IMG/VR virus record: IMGVR_UViG_3300021960_000129
Coordinates: 1-47,356 of that record
Source of the DNA: a virus
Direction: 5' to 3' (one strand)
Length of the DNA: 47,356 nucleotides
How positions within the stretch are numbered: the first letter of the stretch is position 1; each line of letters begins with the position of its first letter. Made by a program: the position numbers and the translations under genes. Positions 184 to 43,833 of the stretch are shown here, piece after piece. The notes beneath the pieces were generated by a model. It had not been told where the DNA came from, did not search any database, and saw only the letters and a program-made list of their open reading frames with translations.

Positions 184-762
184 TTATACTCTTTTTTCAC
201 ATATCCACGTTGTGTGTATCCACTTTTCGTGATTTGGTAAAACAGGTCTTCCCCCATGATAGGTAAGCCTATTAATATTATTATCAGGATAGTTATATTT
301 AAAATATAACAAATCCCCTTTTTGTGGTTTTACTGTTATGTTGAGTTTTGGAAAAACAGTTTCACCACCTTCTTCTACATCATTTAAATAACAGATTGCA
401 GTTGCAAGCCTTTTGTACTCGAGACCTTCTCCTTGATCAAAGTGTGGTTTATATTGTTGTCCATCTTTATAGTTTATGATAACACTGTGTTCAAAAAAAC
501 ATTTTTTTATATCAATTAATTTTGATAAAGCCCTTCTTTGTCTTTTGTTGGCTCCACATTTTTCATCACTTATGACTTTTTCACTACCCGTCCTGGCAGT
601 TGTGGCTGTTGTTGTTCCGTCGAAATGGGTTTCTTTTGATTTACGTAAATCATCTGCAACAAATTTAATAAGTTCATCGCAATCTGAATGACTCATAAAA
701 CCCTTTATAACACTCACTAATGGTTCAGAACATAAAATTTCTTTTTTCTGACGCCGAAACAT
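184..762 (-). CDS. 2OG-Fe(II) oxygenase, prolyl-4-hydroxylase type
   Basis: 192 aa, about the size of a bare P4Hc catalytic domain. The iron ligands are visible as H107-x-D109 (KPHFDQGEG) and distal H169 (TYHGGRPV), with K180 in HEKW as the likely 2-oxoglutarate-binding lysine; CYLNDVEEGGETVF is the typical core strand pair. Such enzymes hydroxylate prolyl or other residues using 2-oxoglutarate and O2, and are common in marine T4-like phages. The substrate is unknown. There is no signal peptide, so it is expected in the cytoplasm. The stop codon touches tRNA-Pro. Confidence 0.9.
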   Translation of the reverse strand: MFRRQKKEILCSEPLVSVIKGFMSHSDCDELIKFVADDLRKSKETHFDGTTTATTARTGSEKVISDEKCGANKRQRRALSKLIDIKKCFFEHSVIINYKDGQQYKPHFDQGEGLEYKRLATAICYLNDVEEGGETVFPKLNITVKPQKGDLLYFKYNYPDNNINRLTYHGGRPVLPNHEKWIHTTWICEKRV

Positions 763-1078: not shown

Positions 1079-1154
1079 TGGTGCACTCAGTAGGACTCGA
1101 ACCTACAACCTACTGATTACAAATCAGTTGCTCTACCATTTGAGCCATGAGTGC
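1079..1154 (-). tRNA. tRNA-Thr (anticodon TGT), CCA encoded
   Basis: Minus-strand cloverleaf with acceptor GCACTCA/TGAGTGC, anticodon stem ACTGA/TCAGT and loop TTTGTAA (anticodon TGT), T arm GTAGG-TTCGAGT-CCTAC and an encoded ACCA end. All stems are well paired. Confidence 0.97.
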
Positions 1155-1161
1155 AATAATT

Positions 1162-1247
1162 TGGTGCGAGCAGAGGGACTCGAACCCACACACCATAATG
1201 ATAACGAATTTTAAGTCCGTTGCGTCTACCTATTCCGCCATGCTCGC
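1162..1247 (-). tRNA. tRNA-Leu (anticodon TAA), CCA encoded
   Basis: Minus-strand class II tRNA with a long variable arm. The acceptor is GCGAGCA/TGCTCGC, the anticodon loop CTTAAAA gives TAA (reads UUA/UUG), the T arm contains TTCGAGT, and ACCA is encoded. Confidence 0.96.
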
Positions 1248-1248
1248 T

Positions 1249-1325
1249 TGGTGCACCCAGTAGGACTCGAACCTACGACCAAAGCGTTATGAGCGCTCTG
1301 CTCTAACCAACTGAGCTACAGGTGC
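1249..1325 (-). tRNA. tRNA-Met (anticodon CAT), elongator-like, CCA encoded
   Basis: Minus-strand cloverleaf with D arm AGCTCAGTTGGTTAGAGC, anticodon loop CTCATAA (CAT), T arm GTAGG-TTCGAGT-CCTAC and encoded ACCA. The first acceptor pair is G-C and the anticodon stem lacks the three G-C pairs typical of initiators, so elongator Met is preferred. A lysidine-modified Ile(CAU) tRNA cannot be excluded by eye. Confidence 0.94.
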
Positions 1326-1329
1326 AATT

Positions 1330-1406
1330 TGGTGAACACGGAAGGATTCGAACCCTCGGCCTAGTGCTTAGAAGGCACTTGCTCTATCCAGCTGAGCTAC
1401 GTGTCC
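1330..1406 (-). tRNA. tRNA-Arg (anticodon TCT), CCA encoded
   Basis: Minus-strand cloverleaf with acceptor GGACACG/CGTGTTC (one G-U pair), anticodon stem AGTGC/GCACT with loop CTTCTAA (TCT, reads AGA/AGG), T loop TTCGAAT and encoded ACCA. It is the first tRNA of the four-tRNA run as transcribed, starting 11 bases after the end of the glycine-zipper gene. Confidence 0.96.
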
Positions 1407-4559: not shown

Positions 4560-4588
4560 ATTATAACACAAAAACTTATATATGTAAA
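4560..4588 (-). promoter_or_regulatory. Sigma70-type early promoter
   Basis: TTTACA, 17 bp, TATAAT on the minus strand, with GAGTG before the -35 box. No palindrome is nearby. It drives the small genes from 4534 to 3790. Confidence 0.85.
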
Positions 4589-4616: not shown

Positions 4617-5807
4617 TTAGCTTGCCAACGTCGAGCATAGCTTATCCAACCTTGGTAATAATTTTTTCCAATATTCATCATCAGCACCGACAGGAATTAT
4701 AAATCTTATACCATCTATCTTATCAGAACGTACTGGATGAAATATACCACAATCTAGTATTTCTTTATAATCCTTTGGCTCATCAAAGTATATATGATTC
4801 AGTAATCCTTTAGAATTTGTCTTGCTTGGGAGCAACTCTGCAACCCTACGCATCTTTTCATCTATCTTATAGAATAGGTATCTTGCTTCCACTATTTTTT
4901 TGTATTCAAGAGCTGCTGCTACTCCACCCATAAATGGGTAGTGGCTGTTGCCGAATAAGAGCTTTGTCCTTACCCTATCCCAAATAAATTCTTTTGAGAA
5001 TGTCATGGCAAGAGGTGCATATCCACCAGTGAGAGCTTTACCTAAAATATTAATATCAGATTGTTGACCGTATTGTGCTGTATGAGTCGAATGCCAAGAA
5101 CCGAGTTTACCACAACCAGAACTTATATCATCTGTGATCAGAATAACATGGTAATTGTTACATAGTCTGCGTATATTAATCCAACAAAATTCAGATAGTG
5201 TTATGACTCCAGCATGTATTAATACAGGCTCTATAATAAAGCACCCTACACCACCAGATTTAAATTCTCGCTCTAACCGAAATAGAAGCTTCTTTTCTTC
5301 TTCAGTATCCATATTCTTTTCAATGGGTTTTAATACTTTGGTTCTAGACATTCTACCAAGAGGCAAATTCAAATCACTCATTGATCTTGCCAAATATGTG
5401 TTACCGTGATATGATGGAGACAGAGAAACGATTGTAGGCTTTACTTGATTTAAAGATTTCCAGTATTCATCGGATATGAGTATTGCTTGATCTACTGCAT
5501 CAGATCCAGATACTGCCCATGTAAATCCTGCCCAATCACTTCCGCACAAAGCTTCAGATAATTCTATTTGCATATCACATGTCAGACCACGTGTAGAAGG
5601 TGTTCGTGTCCAGTTTAAAACTCCATTGTGTACAGCGAGTGCCATACGAGTATTCAGTGCTCCCATAGGAGCTGTATTACCCCAAACTAAATCCATATAT
5701 TCTTTACCACTTTCAGTAGTAAAGGTCCACTTGTGCATTTTCTTTATTCGTGTATGAGCATCGTGTTTCTCAATAGAGTTACCCCAAAAGGTCATTTCTT
5801 TTCTCAT
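4617..5807 (-). CDS. Class III PLP-dependent aminotransferase (glutamate-1-semialdehyde aminomutase-like)
   Basis: 396 aa, normal length for fold-type I class III enzymes. SGSDAVDQAI (100-109) is the phosphate-binding loop, SYHGNTY (132-138) the aromatic stacking region, ITDDISSG (224-231) contains the Asp that holds the pyridine nitrogen, and K257 in NILGKALTGGYAPLA is the Schiff-base lysine. The family transfers amino groups to aldehydes, including keto-sugar-like substrates, or moves them within a molecule. It is the last gene of the glycan block and touches the radical SAM gene (shared base 5807), so the two probably act in one pathway. The substrate is unknown. Confidence 0.9.
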   Translation of the reverse strand: MRKEMTFWGNSIEKHDAHTRIKKMHKWTFTTESGKEYMDLVWGNTAPMGALNTRMALAVHNGVLNWTRTPSTRGLTCDMQIELSEALCGSDWAGFTWAVSGSDAVDQAILISDEYWKSLNQVKPTIVSLSPSYHGNTYLARSMSDLNLPLGRMSRTKVLKPIEKNMDTEEEKKLLFRLEREFKSGGVGCFIIEPVLIHAGVITLSEFCWINIRRLCNNYHVILITDDISSGCGKLGSWHSTHTAQYGQQSDINILGKALTGGYAPLAMTFSKEFIWDRVRTKLLFGNSHYPFMGGVAAALEYKKIVEARYLFYKIDEKMRRVAELLPSKTNSKGLLNHIYFDEPKDYKEILDCGIFHPVRSDKIDGIRFIIPVGADDEYWKKLLPRLDKLCSTLAS

Positions 5808-7750
5808 TATAACTCCAGTGACTGTGGATAGTGAGACATACCCTCACGTTTATTTGCTTGGTTCTTTATTTCAAATAGGTCTCTAAACTTTTCAAAAGAG
5901 AAAAATGAATTAATATCCTCTGGAAACTGTGTACCTATTCTAAACTTGTTTATCTTAACATTTCTTCGTTTAGGTTCTATGTCCATCAGATTGCTTCGTT
6001 CTCCAGGGATCAGATCATTCAGCATTTTAAATATCTCAGAAAAATTGTATTGCATTTCTAACTGCCTTGGCTTTCTCCACGAAACAATGGTCATATATTG
6101 TGCTTTCATCATATCTTTTAATTTATCATCAGACATAGGGGTGAGTTGCTGCATCAAAGCCGTTACATCATCTAACACACCTTCAAGTAATTCTATTGCT
6201 CGGTATTTTACATACATATCTGCTTGAAGCTTATTTCCACGAAACATTATTGCCTTTGAATCTACTTCACCTGCAACATATTTGTGCATATGATCTTTAA
6301 CTTCATTATAGATTTTATTACATGTAGGCATCTGAGATAGCTTATCATAAAACTCACCATAACTTACTGTATAATAATGCCGAGCAAAGTGAGACACAAA
6401 TTTGCTTATATTGAGTATATGAAACCCAATCAGAAACTGAGTGAATGCTTGCATATCAGCATAGTCATCCTTAGAATATGTATTGGTTTCAGTGACAAAC
6501 TCGGAGTGATATAGTGTTTTAAATGTAGAGTTCTCGTTCCTCAGCCGTGTTGTCTTGATGCCATATTTCTGAATATACTCTGGATCTGCGGCTGGAGCAT
6601 TTGGCAATAGCATGAAGTCATGGACACGTAGATCATGATGAAACCCAATCTCTAGCATATAGCCAAGATTGTGCTTCCACTTCTCCACTGTATCGCCTGG
6701 GTTTCCGAGAATGGATACTCCAACAAGAGGGATATTGTTCTTGAACGCTTCGTTCAGTTCCTCTTGTAGCTTGTCTTGTCTGATATTAGAACGGTCGATG
6801 GCATCGAGTACAGCATCATCTGTATGCTGATAGGATATTTGAGCACCTGTACACATGTTAGCCTCATAAAGTAATTTATGGGCTTGGTTGCTAACTTCTT
6901 TCTTATTCTTTGCTGCCGAGAACTGGATCTCTTGTGGATAGCCAGTGCTGTTCTTAAGTTCTACCGCTCTCTCAATGTACTTGATATCATCCTTGAATAT
7001 ACCAAAGTTGGCATCGGCATTGAACACATAGGTAACACCTAGTTTTGAAAATGCCTCAAGGTCCTCCATAACGGTATCTTCGGTCAGTCTACGGATCTTA
7101 TCTGATGTGGCAGAACCCCAATCGCAGAACGCACATTTATATGGGCAACCTCTGTTGGTTTCCCACATTGTAAATAGTGAACCATGTCGGTCTTTAATAG
7201 TTTGTGCAATATGAGTATACTCATCCCAATATAACTTATATGGAGATTGAAACTTTTTTAAAATAAGTCTTTTCGCTGATACTTTATCTACAGGGTACCT
7301 AGGATCTACAAGTAAATCATGTTCAACGGTTAGACCATTTACCTTTTGGTAAAGAATTGTAGCGAGAAGATCCTCGCCTTCCCAAGGAGTGATCCAATCA
7401 CAGACTTCGTATGCTTTTGTATTTTGGTGTGGTCTGTATTGCGCCTGTGGTCCACCAGCAAGAATAAGGATATTAGGGTTTGCCGCTCTTGCTCTCTTGG
7501 CAATTTCCAGTTGTCTTTCTTCGTTCCAGACATAGAACGATAATAATAGTACATCAACATTTTTTAGGTTATGTTCTTCCAAAAGACGATTAACATCAAA
7601 CCACCCTTCTATAAGAGGCGGTAACCATTTTACTTGTGTTAAATCGTGATTACTTTGATAGTCACAATACTCTCTAAACCTACCCCAAGCATAGGGTAAC
7701 CAAACCTGTCTTTCTTCGGCAGCAGGGTTGGAGTATAGAACTGTTATCAT
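5807..7750 (-). CDS. Radical SAM enzyme with B12-binding-type N-terminal domain
   Basis: 647 aa. Residues about 1-140 form a Rossmann-like B12-binding-type domain (VDVLLLSFYVWN, ILILAGGPQ, PWEGEDLLA) without the classical DxHxxG histidine, as is usual in class B radical SAM enzymes. C202, C206 and C209 in ETNRGCPYKCAFCDWG are the 4Fe-4S cysteines. The C-terminal about 200 residues are unassigned. Relatives methylate unactivated carbons or do ring and chain chemistry in antibiotic, hopanoid and tetrapyrrole pathways. Placement between a PLP aminotransferase and sugar-transfer genes suggests it alters a sugar or lipid, which is inference. Confidence 0.9.
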   Translation of the reverse strand: MITVLYSNPAAEERQVWLPYAWGRFREYCDYQSNHDLTQVKWLPPLIEGWFDVNRLLEEHNLKNVDVLLLSFYVWNEERQLEIAKRARAANPNILILAGGPQAQYRPHQNTKAYEVCDWITPWEGEDLLATILYQKVNGLTVEHDLLVDPRYPVDKVSAKRLILKKFQSPYKLYWDEYTHIAQTIKDRHGSLFTMWETNRGCPYKCAFCDWGSATSDKIRRLTEDTVMEDLEAFSKLGVTYVFNADANFGIFKDDIKYIERAVELKNSTGYPQEIQFSAAKNKKEVSNQAHKLLYEANMCTGAQISYQHTDDAVLDAIDRSNIRQDKLQEELNEAFKNNIPLVGVSILGNPGDTVEKWKHNLGYMLEIGFHHDLRVHDFMLLPNAPAADPEYIQKYGIKTTRLRNENSTFKTLYHSEFVTETNTYSKDDYADMQAFTQFLIGFHILNISKFVSHFARHYYTVSYGEFYDKLSQMPTCNKIYNEVKDHMHKYVAGEVDSKAIMFRGNKLQADMYVKYRAIELLEGVLDDVTALMQQLTPMSDDKLKDMMKAQYMTIVSWRKPRQLEMQYNFSEIFKMLNDLIPGERSNLMDIEPKRRNVKINKFRIGTQFPEDINSFFSFEKFRDLFEIKNQANKREGMSHYPQSLEL

Positions 7751-8346
7751 TTTGTATTGATTTCTACATTCTCTGGCAAAGGGATTCTAGCTGTAGTGTG
7801 ATTGTGGTGCAGAACAAACTGTTTGTCTGGAAACTCTTCAAATAACTTTACCCAAATAGGACGCCAATTATTAGCGAGGCGCACTTGGTTCATATCAGAT
7901 CTATCGCTGTTCAAGTAGAAATCTGAACAACTCTTGAGATTCATATCAAAGATGGAATCAAATCCATACAAGTGAATAGTATCACCATTGATTTTTTCTG
8001 GAAGGCAAGCATACCTTACAGCCATGTGACCGCAGTTCCAATCAGTGAGTGTTGGAGCATACGATGGCTTATCTGTAAAGTAATCTCGGATCTGAGAAGC
8101 CCAACGGATGCGAAGATCTGGATTCATCTCTAGGTATTTGTGTGGTCTGAAACCTAAGATCCAATCACCAGGAATTACAATCTCTTGCATATGCATAGCA
8201 TTCATAATCTTAAAATCTACAAGGCACGTTGCATATACACCTTCCACATTAAACGGTGGCAGGTTACACGTAATCTTAATACCTTTTTGATGTTTATATC
8301 TTACGGCTTGATCACCGTTACCTATGACATGTACTGTTCTAGCCAT
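7747..8346 (-). CDS. Hypothetical protein, nucleotide-sugar or DUF115-like
   Basis: 199 aa. It begins with a strand and glycine loop (VHVIGNGDQAVRYK) followed by ITCNLPPFNVEGVYAT and later IHLYGFDSIFD, the pattern seen in DUF115/GT29-like proteins, which act on activated sugars or alcohols. No catalytic residues can be assigned. It overlaps the radical SAM gene by 4 bases and the GT8-like gene by 8. Confidence 0.55.
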   Translation of the reverse strand: MARTVHVIGNGDQAVRYKHQKGIKITCNLPPFNVEGVYATCLVDFKIMNAMHMQEIVIPGDWILGFRPHKYLEMNPDLRIRWASQIRDYFTDKPSYAPTLTDWNCGHMAVRYACLPEKINGDTIHLYGFDSIFDMNLKSCSDFYLNSDRSDMNQVRLANNWRPIWVKLFEEFPDKQFVLHHNHTTARIPLPENVEINTK

Positions 8347-8980
8347 TAATCAACCTTTCAATGTGCAGTTTACCTTTTTTGCCTGTATGATGTAAAATGA
8401 GTTTTTGTTTCGGCTCCGTTTTATCAGATTTCTGTAATCGGAGCACGTTGTATTTATTAGGCAAATCTTCAATAAGAGACATCTTCATTATATCGTTGTT
8501 GCCAATCATATGATGCAAAACCTCTTGGTCTCCAGACTGTGCTGGTACAGCGCATTGGTGTTCCCATTCTCTGAGTATCTGTGGAGTTCCTTCAAACCCT
8601 ACCACACCAGAGTTGTGCCATTTAATTCCACTACGCATAGACCAAGGTTTATCCTCAACCATAAGAAGTTTTTTCGGAACAATGCAATCCCATATGCCAG
8701 ATATGTCTCCCAATATCTCACAGTCTGAGTCGATCCAACAAGTCATCTTTGACTGTTTACTCTGATGTAACATGGCTGCTGGTTTCTTGAACCAACCCCT
8801 AGCCACTATCTCCAGTTTTATAGCGGCGTACTGGCCAGCCATATCAGGCGTCATACCAAAATCATATACAAGAATCTTCTCTCCTTTGTTATGCTTTTTA
8901 AAGTTGTACATAAACCATGGTAGCATCCACTGAGTGTTCTGGTCAACTCCTGTTATAAATGTGCGCTCAGATAATGTCAT
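8339..8980 (-). CDS. GT8-like glycosyltransferase
   Basis: 213 aa from ATG 8980; AAGGAAACCT precedes this ATG, and a longer frame to 9058 would overlap the neighbour by 92 bases. TCWIDSDCEIL contains a DxD metal/nucleotide-sugar motif, and the second half (WHNSGVVGFEG, SGDQEVLHHM) has the conserved N.G and D-Q of GT-A enzymes that follow a sugar donor. Donor and acceptor are unknown. Part of the glycan block. Confidence 0.7.
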   Translation of the reverse strand: MTLSERTFITGVDQNTQWMLPWFMYNFKKHNKGEKILVYDFGMTPDMAGQYAAIKLEIVARGWFKKPAAMLHQSKQSKMTCWIDSDCEILGDISGIWDCIVPKKLLMVEDKPWSMRSGIKWHNSGVVGFEGTPQILREWEHQCAVPAQSGDQEVLHHMIGNNDIMKMSLIEDLPNKYNVLRLQKSDKTEPKQKLILHHTGKKGKLHIERLING

Positions 8981-9617
8981 AGGTTTCCTTATTGTATTTG
9001 TGCTTTGCCAAACACCCTTTCTCAACTTGTATTGTTGTAAAACTATCTCTTGCCTCAACGGGCCATGGATAATACTCTTGTAGGAATCTAAAATTATCTA
9101 GGTGAAGGTATACATCTGTGGGTGCTGCTTGGCTCTTTGCTTTCTTGATTAGAACCTCGGCTGCTTGCCATGATACTTGATAGGCATGTGCTCCACCAAA
9201 ATATTTCTTATGCTGTAGTTCTTGTACGCCCAAGTATCTAGGGATATTAAACTTACCGTATGATGGCTTGCCAAATGTAATGCACCCTTGGTAACCATTG
9301 ACTTCTGGGATTGTATCTACTATCACGGCATCGTGCTCAAAGATCAGTACATCAATCTTATCCTCTACAGCCTTCTTCCACAAGGAATAGTGTGATAAAA
9401 ATGCCGCCATACAATTATCTGTACGAGAATACACCTCATCAAATGCTTGTGGGTTGATGCCATACTCTTTCATAATCTTTTCTGGATTATCTTTTGGTAT
9501 AGTTGCTTTCCATTTTTCTATTTCAAGTCCATGCTTTTTGCCAGACTTGATACACCGTTCAGCCACTTGTACTGATCTCTCATTGTTAAGAATAGTAATA
9601 ACGTATGCTTTTCTCAT
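8967..9617 (-). CDS. GT25-type glycosyltransferase (LPS biosynthesis family)
   Basis: 216 aa. It starts with AYVITILNNERS and has the family's CMAAFLSHYSLWKKA helix followed by VLIFEHDAVI, where HD replaces the ExD-type motif, and AYQVSWQAAEVLI later. GT25 enzymes add galactose or glucose to LPS cores. It overlaps the sulfotransferase upstream by 4 bases. This is one of three GT25-type genes within 5 kb; they are divergent in sequence, so not a recent duplication. Confidence 0.85.
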   Translation of the reverse strand: MRKAYVITILNNERSVQVAERCIKSGKKHGLEIEKWKATIPKDNPEKIMKEYGINPQAFDEVYSRTDNCMAAFLSHYSLWKKAVEDKIDVLIFEHDAVIVDTIPEVNGYQGCITFGKPSYGKFNIPRYLGVQELQHKKYFGGAHAYQVSWQAAEVLIKKAKSQAAPTDVYLHLDNFRFLQEYYPWPVEARDSFTTIQVEKGCLAKHKYNKETYDII

Positions 9618-10243
9618 CTCACGTTCCTTGCAGTGGTTTCAAAGTCCCATCCAAACTTGTGAATGTCTATTCTGAACCAATCACGCACCTTTTGTATTTG
9701 GTCTGTACTATAGTAACACTTATAGTCCTCTTTGTAAACACCTTTGTTCGCATAAGTTTCGAGTTCTATTCCAAATAGGTTCTCATAATCTTCTGCCAAG
9801 TGCTCATATCTGAGAAGCTTAACCTCTCGTGTTAGCCAATCCCATTGTGATCCAAAATGATCATATGGGTGGTTGTAGTAAAAATGTGAGGTATGGGCAT
9901 ACACCTCTATACGATCAATGAACTCATCCCAAGAGATCTTGTCTCTTTGAAAATACTCCCCAACTCCATTCTCTCTTAAATGATCGGCATGCTCATATAG
10001 AGATACAAGCCTTGACCAAGGGTTTCGCACTACTGCTACCTTTGGATGTGATCTTAACTCTCTTTGTAAATATGTTGCTGGCGTATGATGTACCATTTGA
10101 GGTAGATGATCAGGCGTAAGAAACCTTCGATCCACCATTTGGTTATTTACATGTACAACATTATGAGAGTTTTCACGGATACTTGTACCACCGTTTTTAG
10201 GTATGTGGATCAGTATGTGTCTATTTGGATGTATGCGAATCAA
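9614..10243 (-). CDS. Sulfotransferase (PAPS-dependent, carbohydrate type)
   Basis: 209 aa. HIPKNGGTSIR near the N-terminus is the 5'-phosphosulfate loop and VAVVRNPWSRLVSLYEH the 3'-phosphate motif; both are intact. The HIPKNGG form resembles heparan-sulfate-type carbohydrate sulfotransferases. It would transfer sulfate from PAPS to a sugar hydroxyl. Neighbouring GT25 genes on both sides suggest a sulfated glycan. No signal peptide, so cytoplasmic or membrane-peripheral. Confidence 0.88.
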   Translation of the reverse strand: MIRIHPNRHILIHIPKNGGTSIRENSHNVVHVNNQMVDRRFLTPDHLPQMVHHTPATYLQRELRSHPKVAVVRNPWSRLVSLYEHADHLRENGVGEYFQRDKISWDEFIDRIEVYAHTSHFYYNHPYDHFGSQWDWLTREVKLLRYEHLAEDYENLFGIELETYANKGVYKEDYKCYYSTDQIQKVRDWFRIDIHKFGWDFETTARNVR

Positions 10244-10976
10244 TTTTCTGTACCTTTGTATACCAAGGGTAAACTTGTTGAAGTTTCCCTGGCATCAGTT
10301 GTTTACACATAATAGCATCATTAGGCCAAATGCCATGTTCAGCAGTGAGTTCAATTAATTTCTTAGCTCCTGCTGGTTTAATTATATATGCGCTATTTCC
10401 TGGTAAACCTTGTGGAACAATTTTATCATCAATCCAAGGCACAAGGACAATGGATATATTATCTTTAGGCTTTTTAGCTTTCTTATCAACTATTTCTCTT
10501 ATTTTATCTCTGTAAAGAGAAGCCCGTCGAGTTGCGCCAAGTGGGGAGTTTAGTGCTAGAATATCTCCTTTAAACCTATCCTCTATTTTAGAGTATTGAA
10601 ATTTATCTGTGAATAGTGCATCGTGTTCAAGTATCATGATAGGCTTATCATCTGTAATACATTTCAGCCATAGGTTATAGTGACTCATAAAACATGCAAT
10701 TCTCTTGCGGAGATCCTTTGTAGGATATGCACTCAATTGTAGACCTGATTTCATATCGAAGCGAGTGCCCTCTGTCGGATATGTATAACTAATAGGTGGT
10801 AAAATTGATGACTTCGGAAACACCTTATTCATGCTCTCCTCTAAATTTCTTGGTGTTACCGCATCATAAACAAACGCATTAATATCAGACTTACTGTCTT
10901 TGATGGACAGCATAAGCCTACGAGTAGCAACTGTGCTTTCGTGGTTATTGGTGATTGATATGATATATGCGTCCAT
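10221..10976 (-). CDS. GT25-type glycosyltransferase
   Basis: 251 aa from ATG 10976 (MDAYIISITNNHES); the open frame extends to 11054, but the conserved GT25 start and the lack of overlap with the methyltransferase favour the shorter form. RIACFMSHYNLWLKCI and IMILEHDALFTD are the family landmarks, followed by SAYIIKPAGAKKLIEL. Overlaps the sulfotransferase downstream by 23 bases. Donor unknown. Confidence 0.82.
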   Translation of the reverse strand: MDAYIISITNNHESTVATRRLMLSIKDSKSDINAFVYDAVTPRNLEESMNKVFPKSSILPPISYTYPTEGTRFDMKSGLQLSAYPTKDLRKRIACFMSHYNLWLKCITDDKPIMILEHDALFTDKFQYSKIEDRFKGDILALNSPLGATRRASLYRDKIREIVDKKAKKPKDNISIVLVPWIDDKIVPQGLPGNSAYIIKPAGAKKLIELTAEHGIWPNDAIMCKQLMPGKLQQVYPWYTKVQKIDSHTSK

Positions 10977-11025
10977 TCTATATTTTACTCTCTTTATTAC
11001 TTTTTCAAGTGTTGGTTTATCTACC

Positions 11026-11703
11026 TCAAGCGGAAGTGGTATTTGCATGTTCAACCATCATAATAGTGCTGTCAGGTACCCATTCTGGTTTGCCTTTTTT
11101 GCCTTTTGCCAATTGACGTTTCTGTCTAACATCATATAGTTTACTTGAGAATCCGTAATCAATTTCATTCATGAATTTACTATATGCAGCTAAATTATAT
11201 CTTTCTGGTTTTTTCTTAATCCAAGCGTGATTCATATCTTGAAAATCCATAATATCAAAAGGCCATACATCTTCTACAAAATATTTACCTTCTTTTTTCA
11301 GTAGGTGACTAAGGTGTTTAAATGTAAGTCGATTTGCTTCTGGCCAATGAGCGCCGTCATCAATAATAAAATCAAATTTAATAGAAGGCCAAGCCTTTTT
11401 ACATTGTTCTTTTACCATCGGGTCAAGTGTATCACCTTTAAACCATTTAACACGATCTTCTTTTAAAATAGCCAAATCTTCTGGATTCGTGCGAACAAAA
11501 ATATCAATACCGTAAATGGTAGCATTAGGAAAATACTCATGCAGTGCTGCTGTGGATTCACCTTTCCAAATACCGATTTCTAAAATATTAATCTTTTTAT
11601 CTCGCACCTTTTCAAAGTGTGGTTCATATACCTCTTGATAAAAGTGTTTACGACTACCCTTATCTGTATTATGTTTATCAAATAGTTTTAGCAAATCACT
11701 CAT
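11026..11703 (-). CDS. Class I SAM-dependent methyltransferase
   Basis: 225 aa from ATG 11703, in an ATGA overlap with the upstream stop and with GGAG 6 bases before it. ILEIGIWKGEST is motif I (SAM-binding glycine loop), IYGIDIF the motif II acidic residue, and FDFIIDDGAHWPE the later Asp-rich motif seen in macrocin O-methyltransferase / cephalosporin-hydroxylase-like proteins, which act on sugars of glycosides. HNTDKGSRKHFYQEVYE at the N-terminus fits the same group. Sugar O-methylation is likely but unproven. Confidence 0.85.
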   Translation of the reverse strand: MSDLLKLFDKHNTDKGSRKHFYQEVYEPHFEKVRDKKINILEIGIWKGESTAALHEYFPNATIYGIDIFVRTNPEDLAILKEDRVKWFKGDTLDPMVKEQCKKAWPSIKFDFIIDDGAHWPEANRLTFKHLSHLLKKEGKYFVEDVWPFDIMDFQDMNHAWIKKKPERYNLAAYSKFMNEIDYGFSSKLYDVRQKRQLAKGKKGKPEWVPDSTIMMVEHANTTSA

Positions 11704-12389
11704 TTCAATCTCCAAATATTTTTTGTTGGGCCACTACCAAAGTCATAGCCAAAGGCATCAACATCAGCCTTATACCAATCTCCAACAATGTTTCGTGTTT
11801 CTGATGTATATACATCCATATATGAACCTTCAAGCAAACCTGTTACATTACGTGCTCTCGGTACTTCTGCCAACCCAAGATACTTAGGAATATCTTCATT
11901 GTAGTGTTCGAAGGATAATACGTCTGGCATGATGTTGCCCTTTAGATCAGTAACATGATCAAGTGCTGGATACCAACCACGTGTGGCTCGGTGCCACATA
12001 AACTTGACGTTACCCCACTTATGCCTCTCCTCAAGGAATGCCTCAAAGGAACTTACATCTGCATAGCTGCCAGGTTCTTTTTTCTCCACCTCGATAATCT
12101 TTTTAATAAACATATAACGAGATACCACACGATCCCAAGGGTTTCTGATAATACAGAAAGATCCATGAGCTTCTAAGAGACTTCGGTTACAGTCTCTCCA
12201 CCGTGCGTGTTCAAAGCCGTGATGGTCTCTATGCTTGTCCATCACATCTTTGACGTTCTGTGTGTACTCACGAGACTTATGCACATCTGGACCTGCAGTA
12301 ATCATCTTACCCCTAAGTGCTGAGTTTCTTCTGAGTGTCATACCACCATTTTTGGGAATGTGGATAAAAACTTTTGGCAGTCCAATCAT
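11700..12389 (-). CDS. Sulfotransferase, second copy
   Basis: 229 aa. VFIHIPKNGGMTLRRN is the 5'-phosphosulfate loop and SFCIIRNPWDRVVSRYMF the 3'-phosphate motif. It differs in sequence from the copy at 9614, so the two probably sulfate different positions or acceptors. It overlaps both neighbours by 4 bases. Confidence 0.87.
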   Translation of the reverse strand: MIGLPKVFIHIPKNGGMTLRRNSALRGKMITAGPDVHKSREYTQNVKDVMDKHRDHHGFEHARWRDCNRSLLEAHGSFCIIRNPWDRVVSRYMFIKKIIEVEKKEPGSYADVSSFEAFLEERHKWGNVKFMWHRATRGWYPALDHVTDLKGNIMPDVLSFEHYNEDIPKYLGLAEVPRARNVTGLLEGSYMDVYTSETRNIVGDWYKADVDAFGYDFGSGPTKNIWRLK

Positions 12390-13162
12390 ATCTGTTCCAT
12401 CAACTCTTTCACGTTTTCACCCTTATTGGGTAGTTTATCTTTAAGGAAGAAATGCACAAAGTGACATTCTGATATTTTTTGGTTGGCAGAGAACAGTCCG
12501 TTCCATTTCCAATCCATATTTTTAATACTCATTTTCTCTTTACGGATCCACCAGTTTAGTAGTGTTTGATCAGTAGACCATTTCCAAGCACCATCACCGT
12601 TGATGAATCCTTGGAACTCACTGCGTTGTAGAAACTCTTTAGGCGTCTGACCTTTGAGGTACCTGGAAAAGCTTTTATTCATTACCATGATACCCATGTT
12701 CATAAATTCACCACCACGCTGATTCCATTTCCAATCAATCTTAGGCAATGGTTTATATTGCATACGGCTATAGTTTACAATCTTGTTAACGTATGCTTTT
12801 GAAAGAGGCATGTCTCTTTCTACTACGGCACCAAAGTCATACTCAGGAGGTAGATCATCAAATATAGATGTAGCATCGCTCCTGATATACACATCAGCAT
12901 CGATAATTGCCACTTGATGGAATCGGTCGAAGTATCCAAACGCATTCTCTTTTTCATATATAGGAAGGAATCCACCATACTTTTCATAACTTTCTTTGCT
13001 CCTATTAGTTTGGAAAACATCGGGTTTGATTTTTAAGATAGGATGCCGCTGGCAGATATATTCTGCCCCTATTTTCTTTGCGTATGCTTCTACGCTTTCT
13101 GTACACCAATCATATAATTTGGATGGTTTACCAGTATAGACTTGATAGATCAATTGTTTCAT
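12386..13162 (-). CDS. GT8-like glycosyltransferase
   Basis: 258 aa. It opens with QLIYQVYTGKPSKLYDWC, the first strand of a GT-A Rossmann-like fold. VAIIDADVYIRSDATSIF holds the DxD motif and GGEFMNMGIMVMNKS the downstream acceptor loop; STDQTLLNWW is the late D-Q motif of GT8-type enzymes. Donor unknown. Overlaps both neighbours by 4 bases. Confidence 0.75.
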   Translation of the reverse strand: MKQLIYQVYTGKPSKLYDWCTESVEAYAKKIGAEYICQRHPILKIKPDVFQTNRSKESYEKYGGFLPIYEKENAFGYFDRFHQVAIIDADVYIRSDATSIFDDLPPEYDFGAVVERDMPLSKAYVNKIVNYSRMQYKPLPKIDWKWNQRGGEFMNMGIMVMNKSFSRYLKGQTPKEFLQRSEFQGFINGDGAWKWSTDQTLLNWWIRKEKMSIKNMDWKWNGLFSANQKISECHFVHFFLKDKLPNKGENVKELMEQI

Positions 13163-13776
13163 TTTTTACCTACTGTCGGTTTTGTTGTGCCTACATTTGG
13201 ATTTATATAATGTGTTGCACATATATTTGTATCTATATATTCTGTTTTAAATGTACCTTTAGGATACCATGGATCTTGCTTAGAATGTAGATACCCATCA
13301 ACAGGCATATTAATTCGGTTGACAAACAAGAGTTCCTTCGCCATTGAAGGTTTTATATAGTAGCCCAAGGCGGCTAGGTTTCTACCATCCTCAGTCATAC
13401 CAAATGACCACAAACTTTTCTTTGTAATATATTCTGGCAATTCTTGCGTCATCATACAGTCGTGTTCAATTACAAGAGATGGTCCTAAGTGTGGACGATC
13501 ATTCTGCTTTGCTATTTTGTGCCATATCTTATAATGAGAATACCAAATTGCCTTTTCCTCTGGCAACCATTTTCTTGTTCTGTCGGCATCATATTCTCTC
13601 TCATCACTGAAAAACAGATAGTTTGGTATATTATCAGGAGTAGTGGCAGCTACTCTAATTATATTCGTGTAACCAAATTGATTAAAACTATCCACGGATT
13701 TCTCTGCGTAATATTCTGATATAGGATTGTTTGGGATTACAATCTGATAGATTGGTAGTGTTTTAGCGATAGTCAT
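13159..13776 (-). CDS. GT25-type glycosyltransferase, third copy
   Basis: 205 aa from ATG 13776 (MTIAKTLPIYQIVIPNN); the longer frame would overlap the radical SAM gene by 89 bases. AIWYSHYKIWHKIA and LVIEHDCMMTQ are the GT25 landmarks. More divergent than the other two. The downstream overlap is 4 bases. Confidence 0.72.
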   Translation of the reverse strand: MTIAKTLPIYQIVIPNNPISEYYAEKSVDSFNQFGYTNIIRVAATTPDNIPNYLFFSDEREYDADRTRKWLPEEKAIWYSHYKIWHKIAKQNDRPHLGPSLVIEHDCMMTQELPEYITKKSLWSFGMTEDGRNLAALGYYIKPSMAKELLFVNRINMPVDGYLHSKQDPWYPKGTFKTEYIDTNICATHYINPNVGTTKPTVGKK

Positions 13777-14722
13777 TAAGGTCAAATTCCGTACCGTGCA
13801 TCTTGTAGTTTTTTCTGTCGTGATTTGTGTATACAAGAACCTCTGGATCATCTATAAGGAAATCACAGCCCTTACAGAAGTCTGGAAAGTCTCCCATCTC
13901 GTGCTGCTTTCTCAGTTGGTTATACGGCTCACCATACCAAATCTCTTCAAGTGTGTTAGTGCTCATATGACCAAGGACTGCTTCATCATCTCTACCCAAT
14001 ACTTGACAGCAAGGATGTACGGCACCTTTGGCTCCATTAATACCGCCTGCTCGGATTACCACATCAGGCGAGAAAGGTCTGCCACAAGTCTTGAGTTTGC
14101 CTTCTCTTGCATACTCTGGTTCATAAACACCAGACCAGTTATGCATCTTCCAGATCTCGGTGCTTACACCAGCCCCTTCAACGATCTTCTTATATCGCTC
14201 AACCTCATAGTCGATGTTGTCATTATCAAGAACAAGATGATATGTAGCAACGACACAATCTGAGTTTGTCTTGGTCACATACTCTTGCATCTCATGTAGG
14301 TTTCTGATTACTTTACTAAAGTATGGGCTGTTCATCCATTTGGCATAGAGTTCTGCATTATAACCTACGATAGAGAACCGAAAGAAATCACAACCAGCAT
14401 CAACAGTCTCTCTCATAAACCCATCAGACATCCGCATACCATTGCTAAACATGAATGCCTTGGCACCATATTTCTTTACGATTTTGATATATTCTGGAAG
14501 ATTGCGGTTCAGTGTTACTTCGCCAGAGCCGTCTAGGTTTACCACATTCAGTCCTGCTTCTGCGCACTGAGCAACATTATCTTCAAACTCTGTAAGAGAC
14601 ATTTTCTTGAGCCAGTTCTTACCACGTGCGCCTGTTGTACCGTCAGCATGAGTCTGTGGGCACATCTGACAAGTGTAGTTACACCCACCGTTAATCTCTA
14701 TTACAGCTCTATCAATTTTCAT
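13763..14722 (-). CDS. Radical SAM protein with SPASM-like C-terminus
   Basis: 319 aa. C14, C18 and C21 in INGGCNYTCQMCPQT bind the radical SAM cluster. Later cysteines (KTCGRPF, HPCCQVL, DFCKGCDF) follow the spacing of a SPASM/Twitch auxiliary cluster domain, with LEEIWYG between them as is usual. SPASM enzymes modify peptides, alcohols or sugars. Within this glycan block a sugar dehydrogenation, epimerisation or deoxygenation step is plausible but not shown. Confidence 0.88.
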   Translation of the reverse strand: MKIDRAVIEINGGCNYTCQMCPQTHADGTTGARGKNWLKKMSLTEFEDNVAQCAEAGLNVVNLDGSGEVTLNRNLPEYIKIVKKYGAKAFMFSNGMRMSDGFMRETVDAGCDFFRFSIVGYNAELYAKWMNSPYFSKVIRNLHEMQEYVTKTNSDCVVATYHLVLDNDNIDYEVERYKKIVEGAGVSTEIWKMHNWSGVYEPEYAREGKLKTCGRPFSPDVVIRAGGINGAKGAVHPCCQVLGRDDEAVLGHMSTNTLEEIWYGEPYNQLRKQHEMGDFPDFCKGCDFLIDDPEVLVYTNHDRKNYKMHGTEFDLNDYR

Positions 14723-15575
14723 ATAGAAGTCTCATTCTTTTCTTTTGTTTTTCTGCTAAGTGTTTAGCTTCAATTATCTTATTTTCTACATCATAGAAGT
14801 AACTGATCTCATGTTGCAAGACCTTTCTCACTTTATACTTGAGAGCGTCCGGTGTATGAAACCCAGTGATTAGATCCTTTGTCAAGACAATCATCGGTTT
14901 ACTCATATTCCTAGATATATAGTGCCACATTCCTTCATAACATATTATACACTCACAACTAGCAATGTGGTATAGCACTTCACGTATTGGCGTTCTGTAA
15001 TCTATAAAGGTGACTGAATATCCTTGTATTTCCAATACTCGTTTTAGATGATCCCATTCCTTGAGATTAAAGGTTCTTTTAAAAGGTCTTGGTAACTCGC
15101 TGTTTAATGCAGAATGCCATATTGTAATCTTTTTATCAACAACAGGTATATCTATATCTCTGAAATGCCAATCATTTGTCTTAATACTACTTGGACGTTT
15201 TCCCCCTTTTAATATCTCTCCATATTGTTGAAAGTGTGAGAATTTTTTTGAATAGAGCGAGTAGTTATTGGAATTAAATACGTGATTTATATTAACCTCT
15301 GCTGTGTCATTCGCATAAAACGAAAGTAAATACTCTGCTCTTTCTGGTAGAGTTTCTGGATCCTCAAAATGGTGAAGGTAGTTTTCTGGGTTATACCAAT
15401 GCACTTCTAAGTCTATAGGTGCTTGTATTACATGTGATCTAAGGTGGGCAACATTATAAAGGTACATGATATCACCTGCACCTACAGTTGCCCTACCTAT
15501 TATTTTTTTACGTCTGTTTATTGGAAGCCAGTTTTCAGTTATTCTCTGGCTTGTTATAAGGTTTGGCTTCTTCAT
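14712..15575 (-). CDS. Hypothetical protein, possible GT-B glycosyltransferase
   Basis: 287 aa. The C-terminal half (ITIWHSALNSELPRP, YSVTFIDYRTPIREVL, CECIICYEGMWHYISRN, PMIVLTKD) resembles heptosyltransferase-like GT-B proteins: a nucleotide-sugar strand followed by a conserved E-G-M-W-H helix start and a hydrophobic strand. The N-terminal domain is unassigned. It overlaps the radical SAM gene by 11 bases and the next by 41. Fold assignment is tentative. Confidence 0.5.
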   Translation of the reverse strand: MKKPNLITSQRITENWLPINRRKKIIGRATVGAGDIMYLYNVAHLRSHVIQAPIDLEVHWYNPENYLHHFEDPETLPERAEYLLSFYANDTAEVNINHVFNSNNYSLYSKKFSHFQQYGEILKGGKRPSSIKTNDWHFRDIDIPVVDKKITIWHSALNSELPRPFKRTFNLKEWDHLKRVLEIQGYSVTFIDYRTPIREVLYHIASCECIICYEGMWHYISRNMSKPMIVLTKDLITGFHTPDALKYKVRKVLQHEISYFYDVENKIIEAKHLAEKQKKRMRLLYEN

Positions 15576-15777
15576 ATTTGTTTTCCAAAATCACTTGTGC
15601 CAAACGAATTGCTTCTGGGCAGTTTTTTCGTCGTGCATTACTTTTTTTACCCTCAGATAAAAACCACACCAAATTTTCTATTGTGCCTTGATGTTTGGAT
15701 ATATCAGGAAATTTAAATGCTCTGGTTATTTCTTCCCATTGTGATCTAGCATTAAGTGCTGTAAATACATTTTGCAT
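15535..15777 (-). CDS. Hypothetical small protein
   Basis: 80 aa, polar, mostly helical (QWEEITRAFKFPDISKH, CPEAIRLAQVILENKY). It lies 2 bases after the HAD gene and overlaps the next by 41 bases. Family not recognised. Confidence 0.6.
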   Translation of the reverse strand: MQNVFTALNARSQWEEITRAFKFPDISKHQGTIENLVWFLSEGKKSNARRKNCPEAIRLAQVILENKYEEAKPYNKPENN

Positions 15778-15779
15778 AT

Positions 15780-16370
15780 TTATTCTCCTGTTAGTGTATA
15801 GAAAATAGATTTCCAGTTTTTATGTGTTGATCCTGGTGCATATTCCATATTGTGACCATGTTCCATAATCATACTGTTAAGACCCATACGCCAACCTAAT
15901 TCAGCATTCTCTGGTTTATCCTCAAGCCAAGGCAATCCAGTATCACGGTATGGTTCAAGTGCATTATCTTTATCAGCCCCTGTATCAAGAAATACAAACT
16001 TCTCAAACGCAGTCTCGCCGAAAAGCTTTTTGGTATTAGCAATTCTTAACTGTTGCGCTTGGGGATCTAAACTCAATGAAGTGATCATGTGAAATACATA
16101 GCCATACTTACGGTGTAGCAAATCAATATAATGAATAGCGTCTCGCAGAGGTGGTAGAAAGCCGATAGCAGCAGATTCATTGAACAACCGCACGTATTTA
16201 CGGCTCTCCTCTTTCTCCATACCAAACCGTTTGGCTACATCATAATCGGTTTTATTTATCTGTTCAAAACCTTTACGAGCCATCCATGTGATGAATGCAT
16301 ATTCCCAGTTCATTAGGACGCCATCGCAATCAGTAAGGATTAGATTTTCACTGTATTCATAGTAGTGCAT
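15780..16370 (-). CDS. HAD-superfamily phosphatase, 5'-nucleotidase-like
   Basis: 196 aa. LILTDCDGVLMNWEYAF is HAD motif I (nucleophile Asp and DxD acid), MITSL motif II, and PWLEDKPENAELG motif IV with the acidic pair; the cap lies between about 25 and 95. Similar proteins are annotated as 5'(3')-nucleotidases in T4-like phages. The product could remove phosphate from nucleotides or, given its place at the head of the glycan block, from a sugar phosphate. Confidence 0.8.
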   Translation of the reverse strand: MHYYEYSENLILTDCDGVLMNWEYAFITWMARKGFEQINKTDYDVAKRFGMEKEESRKYVRLFNESAAIGFLPPLRDAIHYIDLLHRKYGYVFHMITSLSLDPQAQQLRIANTKKLFGETAFEKFVFLDTGADKDNALEPYRDTGLPWLEDKPENAELGWRMGLNSMIMEHGHNMEYAPGSTHKNWKSIFYTLTGE

Positions 16371-16543
16371 TATATATCTTCTTTTTGTGTAATCTCAGCC
16401 AGTTTTTCTGCCTGATATGACTTCAATTTTAGTTTAGAGCCTTTTAATGTGGAGTCTTTGATCCGATTATCTTTCTCCAGTGCTCGGTCTTTCTGTTTAC
16501 CTTTGTTCTTATTTCTAGGATCGTAACGAGAGTATTTTGCCAT
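16370..16543 (-). CDS. Hypothetical basic 57-aa protein
   Basis: Frame from ATG 16543 to TAA 16370 (MAKYSRYDPRNKNKGKQKD...), with about one third Lys/Arg. It is the first gene after the promoter 16585-16613 and overlaps the next start (TAATG). Probably binds nucleic acid; family not recognised. Confidence 0.7.
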   Translation of the reverse strand: MAKYSRYDPRNKNKGKQKDRALEKDNRIKDSTLKGSKLKLKSYQAEKLAEITQKEDI

Positions 16544-16584: not shown

Positions 16585-16613
16585 ATTATATCATACATTT
16601 GATGATATGTAAA
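16585..16613 (-). promoter_or_regulatory. Sigma70-type early promoter for the glycan block
   Basis: TTTACA, 17 bp, TATAAT on the minus strand, preceded by TTAGGTG. I see no other promoter or terminator between here and 4617, so it may drive the whole block of about 12 kb. No palindrome nearby. Confidence 0.85.
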
Positions 16614-16616
16614 CAC

Positions 16617-17279
16617 CTAAGTTATTTTCATTAGTTCTTTTGTCATGATATATTCACGAACAAGATCAGATCGTACAATATCTTTCCAAGTAAATTCTAT
16701 TGTTTCAAAGACTGTTAGTTGATCCAGAATGTTAAGAAATTGTATCAACCCATTCTTATCTCTATCCTTTTCAAAATCTGACTGGTAATAATCTCCACAG
16801 AATATCAATTTACAGTTTTCTCCAACACGTGTGATTACTGAATCCAATTCATGAAAGTTTAAATTTTGCATTTCATCAACCAGTACAACACAGTTATCAA
16901 ATGTGGTTCCACGAATAAATGATGTACTTAAAAATTCTGCCTTTCCTTGCAGAACCAATTTAAAATAGGCACCACGTTCATCTATAATTTCACTACATAT
17001 ATCTACATATGGTAATGTATAAGGTGATTCCTTTTCTTCCTTTGTACCAGGAAGGTAACCTATTTCACGAGTTGGTACAATGGACCGAATTATAACAAGT
17101 TTTTCAATTGCATTATCCTTAGCTAATACCTGTTCAAGTGCAAAGTACATACCGAGATATGTTTTGCCAGTACCAGCAGCTCCACTGAGTACAAGGTGTG
17201 AATTATTAGTCCAAGCATCTCTAGCCTTTTTCTGATTATCAGTAAGAGGCTCAAATTCATACATGTCAGAAATTTTCAT
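16617..17279 (-). CDS. phoH: PhoH-like ATPase
   Basis: 220 aa. LSGAAGTGKT (31-40) is the Walker A loop, VVLVDEMQN (about 131-139) Walker B, and LIFCGDYYQSD the following sensor strand; IIRSIVPTREIGYLPGTKEEK is the PhoH-specific segment. Length and motifs match the phage PhoH family, which is widespread in marine phages; its biochemical role is still uncertain (ATPase, possible RNA helicase or nuclease partner). It overlaps the upstream gene by 4 bases. Confidence 0.95.
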   Translation of the reverse strand: MKISDMYEFEPLTDNQKKARDAWTNNSHLVLSGAAGTGKTYLGMYFALEQVLAKDNAIEKLVIIRSIVPTREIGYLPGTKEEKESPYTLPYVDICSEIIDERGAYFKLVLQGKAEFLSTSFIRGTTFDNCVVLVDEMQNLNFHELDSVITRVGENCKLIFCGDYYQSDFEKDRDKNGLIQFLNILDQLTVFETIEFTWKDIVRSDLVREYIMTKELMKIT

Positions 17280-20646: not shown

Positions 20647-20675
20647 ATTATATCATATAATAAAGTATATGTAAA
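20647..20675 (-). promoter_or_regulatory. Sigma70-type early promoter for rnh
   Basis: TTTACA, 17 bp, TATAAT on the minus strand; the -35 region is AGTTG TTTACA rather than the usual AGGGG/AGGTG. No palindrome. It starts 3 bases past the stop of the upstream gene. Confidence 0.85.
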
Positions 20676-20678: not shown

Positions 20679-21104
20679 CTATTTTAAATTTTTTACATGT
20701 GTTCTGTGTATTTTACAATTTATAATGCCGTTATAATATGAATCATCTAACAGAACACGTCTATCAAATTGTTCTTTAGCCTCGAGGTAGGACATTTCAC
20801 CTTTTGCTTTACAGAGATGTAATATTTCACGACTAAAGCTTTTTTCTCCGTGTTCGAGTAATTGTTGCTTGACCTGATCCGAGGATCCATAATAGTCTTG
20901 CCAGTTGGATTCAACGATGCTTCGCCGTTTTCTTGTTTTACCTTTAAGCGGTGCTCTGGTAACCTTCGACCAAAATCCCTTCTTTCCGACATACTTTTTG
21001 TTATTGGTGTTATCGGTAATAACATAAACAAATCCTTGCCATTCTTTTAGTTCATCTTCAGTTGGCTCATATAGTTTATCTTTATAATACCACATTACAC
21101 CCAA
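20679..21104 (-). CDS. GIY-YIG nuclease, Seg-type homing endonuclease-like
   Basis: 141 aa. FVYVITDNTNNKKYVGKK is the GIY...YVG motif; the following R-rich stretch and YYGSS, then SYLEAKEQFDR with the catalytic Glu, complete the domain, ending in NGIINCKIHR. Free-standing enzymes like this occur between T4 genes and can be mobile. It overlaps the upstream gene by 10 bases, so if mobile it is well integrated. It may instead be a repair nuclease. Confidence 0.8.
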   Translation of the reverse strand: MGVMWYYKDKLYEPTEDELKEWQGFVYVITDNTNNKKYVGKKGFWSKVTRAPLKGKTRKRRSIVESNWQDYYGSSDQVKQQLLEHGEKSFSREILHLCKAKGEMSYLEAKEQFDRRVLLDDSYYNGIINCKIHRTHVKNLK

Positions 21105-21682
21105 TCCTTTACAACGTCAAGAGCCTTGTCTAACTGTTTCTCTTTTAAAAACAGAGAACCGACAATCCTATAATCATAAGATTCATTCATCCAACTATGT
21201 GGTATTTTTGTGTTTAATATAATAGGTTGATCAAGCGGCACTTTCTCAAAATCTTTTTCTGTATAACCAAACTGATTGGTCTCCATACCATTCATGGTAA
21301 CGGATTCTTTCCAATCATAATACTTATATTGTCTGTGATAACCAGATAGGAAACAACCTTTTTCTCGATCCACTCTAATAGGAAAGTTTAAGGAATAGTT
21401 TCTTGATTTATCTGTGTGTATATTAGATATACCCGAGCGAGGATCTGATATAAGAAATAAACATTTGTCATATATCAGAGAAGAGTTTATCTCTATTTCT
21501 CTCATAAACATTCGAGCATAACCATCACCAACACAGTCAACTTCATTCGGTTTTGTACGGATGTCGTCTTCACTAAACTCTGATAAAAACACTTCGATTA
21601 AATTGCTAAGAATGTCTACAGGAAACTTAGGTAGATATTGCCATCTAAAATCACTGGGGGACTCAATCATCCCAATCCTCAT
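21095..21682 (-). CDS. Probable 2OG-Fe(II) oxygenase
   Basis: 195 aa. H89-x-D91 (ISNIHTDKSRNYSLNF) and H162 (TKIPHSWMNES) with R172 (YRIVGSLFL) have the order and spacing of a double-stranded beta-helix oxygenase. The substrate is unknown. It overlaps the zinc-ribbon gene by 20 bases and sits in the transcript of the ribonucleotide reductase. Confidence 0.7.
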   Translation of the reverse strand: MRIGMIESPSDFRWQYLPKFPVDILSNLIEVFLSEFSEDDIRTKPNEVDCVGDGYARMFMREIEINSSLIYDKCLFLISDPRSGISNIHTDKSRNYSLNFPIRVDREKGCFLSGYHRQYKYYDWKESVTMNGMETNQFGYTEKDFEKVPLDQPIILNTKIPHSWMNESYDYRIVGSLFLKEKQLDKALDVVKDWV

Positions 21683-36691: not shown

Positions 36692-36778
36692 ATGCCTTTA
36701 TGCTTTGGACATGACCCCTGCGACGATTGCATTCACTGGCTAAAGTGGATCAACGAACAGTGGCGTAGAAATCCTTAG
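36692..36778 (+). CDS. 28-aa plus-strand mini-protein with three cysteines
   Basis: MPLCFGHDPCDDCIHWLKWI and onward, ending WRRNP. Cys 4, 10 and 13 plus His 7 and His 15 could bind one metal ion. An in-frame ATG at 36677 would leave only about 7 bases of leader, whereas the ATG at 36692 has AGGGAAG before it, so it is preferred. It has a strong dedicated promoter and overlaps the minus-strand gene tail-to-tail by 4 bases, as at 19075-19078. Confidence 0.65.
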   Translation: MPLCFGHDPCDDCIHWLKWINEQWRRNP

Positions 36779-43417: not shown

Positions 43418-43474
43418 TGTAGTTTGTTTCCTATTTTTAAGATTTTCATGATAAAGAGGCCCGTTCTGTTGCTA

Positions 43475-43774: not shown

Positions 43775-43780
43775 GAGTAT

Positions 43781-43809
43781 ATATTAACATACTCTACTGA
43801 TAATGTAAA
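43781..43809 (-). promoter_or_regulatory. Promoter of the tmRNA gene
   Basis: TTTACA, 17 bp, TAATAT on the minus strand; the -10 is weaker than in other promoters. Palindrome copy E lies 24 bp upstream. Confidence 0.7.
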
Positions 43810-43833
43810 CACCCTTACAGTTTATATTTTAGG

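Follow-up and report, generated by a model that had tools for sequence, protein, structure and literature searches.

A block of overlapping genes behind one early promoter

The virus record IMGVR_UViG_3300021960_000129 in IMG/VR is a 47-kb phage fragment, and its whole sequence of 47,356 nucleotides is referred to here as the window. Positions 4617-16543 of the window carry, on the minus strand, a block of 16 open-reading frames (ORFs), each overlapping or lying within a few bases of the next, which encode predicted glycosyltransferases (GTs), sulfotransferases, a methyltransferase, an aminotransferase, two radical S-adenosylmethionine (SAM) enzymes and several small or formerly unassigned proteins (Table 1). 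An earlier note on this DNA gave the block 14 genes, a figure replaced here by 16, to which its own list also adds up. Gene starts are partly uncertain: overlap geometry probably places that of the methyltransferase at 11703 and that of GTa239 at 8980, GT25c probably begins at 13776, its Met26 being kept in at least 90% of 12 relatives, and GT25b may start at 11048 or 10976.

The block lies behind a single early promoter of the sigma70 type, TTTACA-N17-TATAAT, at the place the earlier note had proposed. Five close relatives (L004-L008) share both hexamers and the distance between them, although the spacer sequence diverges. Strict motifs of this type were found seven times on the coding strand against 0.165 expected from mononucleotide shuffles; a looser 9-of-12 scan gave no excess (50 found, 53 expected). 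Strict motifs also precede the exonuclease and ribonucleotide reductase (RNR) genes, and further early promoters lie at 20675, 24194 and 24340. T4-late-like TATAAATA sites stand ahead of other genes, a part of which are structural-like, and the block has none in front of it; with six such motifs on one strand and none on the other against 2.5 expected per strand, the excess is mild, and the placement is suggestive only as evidence for early timing. From this layout, the block is predicted to be one operon transcribed early in infection. An FkbM gene (24359-25120), which had been thought a possible further member, was ruled out by its distance and by the intervening RNR, exonuclease and early promoters.

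Table 1 Features of the glycan block and its surroundings in the window
Feature	Position	Strand	Evidence or remark
AT3, class-III pyridoxal phosphate (PLP) aminotransferase	4617..5807	-	Aminotran_3 E 6e-27; Lys257 conserved
B12-binding radical SAM, KedN5-like C-methyltransferase (predicted)	5807..7750	-	Radical_SAM; B12-binding domain sub-cut-off
u199, Rossmann-like protein	7747..8346	-	3' end marker of conserved frame; weak MptE/GT42 sialyltransferase likeness
GTa239, GT-A-like transferase	8339..9058	-	invariant DxD (D110, D112) across relatives
GT25a glycosyltransferase	8967..9617	-	PF01755
ST1, second sulfotransferase	9614..10243	-	PF03567
GT25b glycosyltransferase	10221..11054	-	PF01755
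MT, SAM-dependent methyltransferase	11026..11715	-	phrog_21658 E 6e-18; Pfam Methyltransf sub-threshold
ST2, sulfotransferase of the 3'-phosphoadenosine 5'-phosphosulfate (PAPS) type	11700..12389	-	PF03567
GT8b, GT8-like GT-A transferase	12386..13162	-	invariant DxD (D88, D90)
GT25c glycosyltransferase	13159..13851	-	PF01755
rSAM, radical SAM enzyme with Twitch-type auxiliary-cluster domain	13763..14722	-	Radical_SAM E 1e-14; SPASM E 1e-8
u287, GT-B fold, GT9/heptosyltransferase-like transferase (predicted)	14712..15575	-	AlphaFold model pLDDT 90; Foldseek
u80, small protein	15535..15777	-	near-universal cassette marker, 60/69 loci
HAD-fold phosphatase-like protein (haloacid dehalogenase)	15780..16370	-	phrog_420; no Pfam family, no PDB profile match
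u57, small basic protein	16370..16543	-	homologs in same position
Early sigma70-type promoter of block	16585..16613	-	11/12 consensus bases
Early promoter of next operon	4560..4588	-	11/12; bounds block downstream
PhoH	16617-17279		
tRNAs	1079-1406		
Permuted tmRNA (transfer-messenger RNA), alphaproteobacterial type	43455-43812	-	RF01849, 129.9 bits; tag ANDNFAPSEFALAA

Gene order and selection across related phages

The order of the block recurs in other phages. Among 69 distinct loci that bear u199 with enough upstream sequence, which were collected through their similarity and share ancestry, so that they are not independent trials, 2038 of 2039 ordered gene pairs were concordant with the window, with divergence reaching about 44-62% identity in u199 and 54-61% in PhoH. 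The frame reads PhoH - (HAD) - u80 - (u287 - rSAM) - GT8 - variable - GT25b - GT25a - GTa239 or another GT - u199, and its members differ in how regularly they occur (GT8b in 65 of the 69 loci, GT25b in 65, GT25a in 61, GTa239 in 56, rSAM in 31 and a sulfotransferase in 22). Where rSAM is present in a cassette, u287 accompanies it in 29 of 31 loci, usually directly ahead, and u80 is found in most cassettes, including those that lack rSAM. The middle is exchangeable and may hold sulfotransferases, methyltransferases, NAD-dependent sugar epimerases, UDP-galactopyranose mutase, HAD-nucleotidyltransferase fusions and more GTs. The earlier note had set a gene order assembled by chance in one genome as the finding that would speak against a glycan-building and decorating block; the recurrence in 69 loci clearly goes the other way. 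Because dozens to hundreds of environmental phages share this order, the block is a functional module that has been maintained, rather than one put together by chance.

Selection on the individual genes is consistent with this. Pairwise ratios of nonsynonymous to synonymous substitution rates (dN/dS) for block genes against G002, L007 and L005 were 0.04-0.22 where dS was unsaturated, close to those of PhoH (0.08-0.12), and the single outlier, 0.44, came from a partial gene, GT25a in L005. All 16 block genes are under strong purifying selection. When phage lipopolysaccharide (LPS) clusters were first described in cyanophages, it was left open whether they have a role or are packaging filler (PMC3037559), and the varying presence of the present cassette among phages, together with its exchangeable middle, would fit stuffer DNA, that is, acquired host genes without function kept for headful packaging. 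Purifying selection contradicts this idea, at least for this cluster lineage, as do the conserved promoter and the strict order over deep divergence, and we regard it as highly improbable; the same data argue that this cluster lineage is functional and old.

Other genes were seen at the edges of these loci; many of the compared contigs are fragments. A carbamoyltransferase of the NodU/TobZ type lies directly ahead of u287 in some loci. It also adjoins the cassette, or lies close to it, in the nearest relative (L084:13116-14627, where it stands beside AT3, after it) and in phage C48C1 (L002:20705-22222). By eye, genes resembling the membrane protein TctA and the binding protein TctC of the tripartite tricarboxylate transporter lie between PhoH and the cassette in two related phage contigs (L009:713-2149 and L097:17774-18880; also L022).

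Transferases, decorating enzymes and a twitch radical SAM enzyme

The three GT25-type transferases recognized in the earlier note all matched PF01755 above its cut-off of 24 bits (E 3e-11, 5e-17 and 4e-7; 43.8, 62.9 and 30.6 bits). Its two GT8-like transferases stand in part: both have an invariant DxD, and GT8b reached 20.6 bits against PF01501 (E 4e-4, below the curated cut-off of 24.3) while GTa239 matched no Pfam family, PF01501 included, so that both are best called GT8-like only. The two unknowns that were thought to act on sugars also became clearer, one more than the other. No sequence family matched u287, and its model is predicted to have a GT-B fold resembling GT9 heptosyltransferases, the best Foldseek match being TibC (4rap, E 3e-4, prob 1.0) and another WaaF (1psw, prob 0.99; across the two, E 3e-4 to 2e-3, prob about 1 and TMq 0.47-0.48). 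The AlphaFold model of u199 is likewise confident (pLDDT 90); relatives of u199 matched the MptE-like family PF01973 weakly (E 0.03-0.09), the protein is 27% identical to a distant phage gene annotated as a sialyltransferase, and its GNG...CN...SG/CG...GFD pattern is one that we take to resemble GT42 enzymes, making a glycosyltransferase possible. PDB profile searches with u199, u287, GT8b, HAD and GTa239 gave nothing useful.

The other assignments of the earlier note were largely borne out. The two sulfotransferases matched PF03567 above its cut-off of 22 bits (E 5e-5 and 3e-8; 24.0 and 34.5 bits) as well as phrog_3347, and the IPKNxG and RNPWxR motifs (5'-PSB and 3'-PB) are conserved, for ST2 to at least 90% in 34 sequences. 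The methyltransferase and the aminotransferase hold on the profile matches of Table 1, and the phosphatase-like protein keeps the HAD motif residues D14, D16, T97/S98, K134 and E150/D151 invariant across relatives. The B12-domain radical SAM, recognized through its Radical_SAM match, also matched NF033712 (E 3e-46, below the cut-off). This enzyme and close homologs of AT3 are confined to the nearest relatives, and a distant aminotransferase (28-32% identity) follows u199 in L010, L011, L013 and L015.

The second radical SAM enzyme, rSAM, had been taken for a SPASM protein, and that description holds only for its profile, since PF13186 matched above cut-off with a SPASM-type tail. The SPASM definition requires seven cysteines binding two auxiliary clusters in the arrangement CX9-15GX4C-gap-CX2CX5CX3C-gap-C (PMC6231123). 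In 42 rSAM sequences, the CX3CX2C motif (C14/C18/C21) and C213, C238, C239, C283 and C286 are invariant, which leaves five auxiliary-region cysteines, not seven, and corresponds to the single auxiliary-cluster set with terminal CX2C of a BtrN-like twitch enzyme. BtrN, the aminocyclitol dehydrogenase of butirosin biosynthesis, was also the best PDB profile match (E 2e-8, over residues 8-114 in the N-terminal half only), and unlike BtrN the phage family has an invariant tail, DDPExxxYTN...DYR. These features bear directly on the suggestion of the earlier note that the block makes a peptide-sugar product, in which radical SAM enzymes would mature a ribosomally synthesized and post-translationally modified peptide (RiPP) that is then glycosylated. 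The SPASM-type Pfam match, the closeness of the small genes u57 and u80 and the nearest NCBIfam models, which are maturases (TIGR04317, 2e-18, far below cut-off), speak for such a pathway. However, only 13 residues precede the radical SAM motif, which leaves no N-terminal RiPP recognition element (RRE), the cysteine set is of the twitch type, no precursor gene, protease or exporter was seen and u80 also occurs where rSAM does not, and we consider a peptide product very unlikely.

Relatives of rSAM are encoded in at least 371 IMG/VR stretches. A scan of 84,980 prokaryote genomes with two conserved peptide patterns, which more distant cellular relatives would escape, gave two matches, both on contigs that also carry phage PhoH and cassette genes (L103, JAAXIF010000028.1, from a Sphingobacteriales metagenome-assembled genome (MAG), and L104, JABJFP010000319.1, from a Euryarchaeota MAG) and are probably misbinned phage. 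The twitch rSAM thus appears, by these searches, to be known so far from phage-like contigs only. When both proteins are compared in the same, more distant phages, its conservation exceeds that of PhoH (0.81 against 0.61 and 0.80 against 0.57). A second family of B12-binding radical SAM proteins (c40, about 530 aa) was observed directly 3' of rSAM in L019-L021 and L050.

Proposed acceptor of the glycan and relation to known phage systems

By sequence, the block is an early-type operon for soluble glycan enzymes whose catalytic motifs are intact. We propose that it serves early glycan biosynthesis and decoration, with the host lipid A-core as the most likely acceptor, by which the cell surface would be rewritten, a reading to which we give about an even chance. 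Up to six or seven cytoplasmic transferases (the three GT25 enzymes, GT8b, GTa239, u287 and possibly u199) would lengthen a short oligosaccharide, using sugar nucleotides mostly supplied by the host, on lipid A-core at the inner face of the inner membrane, which host machinery would later export. The two sulfotransferases, drawing on host PAPS, and the methyltransferase would cap the chain; rSAM would probably oxidize a sugar hydroxyl or modify a sugar carbon in some other way. The ketone so formed could receive an amino group from the class-III aminotransferase, and C-methylation could be the part of the B12 radical SAM. The likely outcome would be a cell surface altered early in infection, which would keep competing phages from adsorbing or progeny from re-adsorbing. 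A bolder version, which we consider unlikely, is a phage-owned surface-antigen locus comparable to a bacterial O-antigen locus in its constant ends and interchangeable middle, in which rSAM would oxidize a sugar within the growing chain and the aminotransferase and B12 radical SAM would add amino and C-methyl groups, giving a virus-specific sulfated amino-sugar chemistry known from no host.

The genes that are missing narrow the choice of acceptor. No flippase, polymerase, exporter or initiating transferase was found in the block, and a simple hydropathy scan of the cassettes of 134 loci, some of them from contigs fetched twice, found no proteins with two or more transmembrane segments except one family of about 110 residues and one singleton. 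An independent polymer is therefore unlikely, and the acceptor must be accessible from the cytoplasm, which points to LPS core or a virion protein. In the latter case, the same enzymes would assemble the decorated oligosaccharide, still within the cytoplasm, on proteins of the capsid or tail, changing adsorption or shielding the particle, and export genes would be neither needed nor expected. Glycans on mycobacteriophage capsids and tail tubes are known, as work cited in PMC12619734 indicates. On the other hand, the promoter is of the early type, the candidate late TATAAATA sites are not ahead of the block, and the cassette has phoH as its neighbour and a gp32-like gene downstream, with no tail fibre genes adjacent in the window. 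A collagen-like GXY acceptor was sought in the window and none was found. We therefore favor LPS core moderately, on account of the early promoter, the GT25- and GT9-like enzymes and the lack of export machinery, and regard virion glycosylation as a tentative alternative of clearly lower probability.

Several points weigh against LPS core or against so close a link to glycans. Enzymes of the GT25 and GT8 families can also glycosylate proteins, and the best fold match of u287, TibC, is a protein heptosyltransferase, as the virion alternative would have it. Early promoters are compatible with enzymes that act later on virions. The fold search of u199 against the PDB gave nothing significant, with weak Rossmann-like matches only. 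Finally, rSAM also occurs outside the cassette, beside RNR genes (L066/L068) and beside another B12 radical SAM (L019-L021, L050), so that it is a mobile partner rather than a fixed part of the frame, with a link to glycans that is not exclusive.

Phage DNA is a further conceivable acceptor, with sugars placed on hydroxymethylated pyrimidines against restriction. Some viruses are known to encode GT clusters that attach a variety of glycans to DNA (Pyle 2024, cited in PMC12619734). Two related contigs, G006 and G024, have a weak homolog of PF00303, the thymidylate synthase and pyrimidine hydroxymethylase family, but none was found in the cassette-frame contigs G003 (121 kb), G004 (147 kb), G007 and G025, nor in complete C48C1, which has only part of the cassette. 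To our knowledge, GT25 and GT8 enzymes and sulfotransferases are not known to act on DNA, and we judge this explanation improbable.

The phage itself is T4-like and marine. The window holds PhoH, RNR, an Rz-like spanin, an exonuclease, ThyX, five tRNAs and an alpha-type permuted tmRNA, and no photosynthesis genes were seen in it. A second contig overlaps it over 38.8 kb at 99.94% identity and extends 13 kb beyond window position 1, and the gp32-like gene in that extension was assigned by eye from its sequence and its position relative to C48C1; the block thus lies between phoH and the tRNAs and gp32. The type of the tmRNA suggests that the host is probably an alphaproteobacterium, as does the presence of an alpha_tmRNA of the RF01849 family in 7 of 16 related contigs; phages of this group thus commonly carry a tmRNA. 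Four separate 2OG-Fe(II) (2-oxoglutarate, iron) oxygenase-like genes were noted by eye in the window (184-762, 21095-21682, 36775-37242 and 45191-45874).

Clusters of this kind have precedents. The cyanophages P-SSM2, S-SM2 and S-SSM7 carry LPS gene clusters near phoH/hli03 and tRNAs (PMC3037559), and the window resembles them as a T4-like marine phage with its cluster beside phoH and close to tRNAs; they too contain genes of the GT25, sugar epimerase and carbamoyltransferase types. Unlike those clusters, the block has no heptose pathway and has two sulfotransferases, two radical SAM enzymes and a conserved frame, and in the searched P-SSM2 and S-SSM7 stretches no homolog of a block gene was found at E<=0.01, PhoH alone matching. 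The block belongs to the kind of phage LPS cluster already known, yet it forms a lineage of its own, marked by the twitch radical SAM. Pelagimyophages, for whose glycosyltransferases a change of the host O-chain was proposed (PMC7029224), are likewise T4-like with alphaproteobacterial hosts and GT8-rich glycan genes, and radical SAM cassettes are gained or lost between their close relatives; their genes are reported to lie largely within a host-recognition cluster with tail fibres, whereas the present block holds a fixed locus in invariant order. The gtrABC and Oac systems of serotype conversion in the temperate phages P22, Sf6 and D3 are alike in the proposed adsorption-blocking change of surface glycan, but Gtr systems use the membrane flippase GtrA and the bactoprenol transferase GtrB (PMC11436027), neither of which is present in the block, which encodes no protein with multiple transmembrane segments. 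With the frame conserved and the middle exchangeable, it becomes testable whether a glycan made by phages diversifies in the manner of serotypes, and the phage-specific rSAM is a defined target for biochemistry.

A megablast search of the whole block against phages gave zero matches, and a literature search for phage C48C1 (OQ984149, Kyanoviridae) found nothing. C48C1 is the only GenBank phage found with rSAM (64% identity). It has no detectable homologs of GT8b, the GT25 genes or the sulfotransferases, and it carries u287 (31%), u199 (42%) and HAD (51%) in the order of the window, together with the NodU-type carbamoyltransferase.

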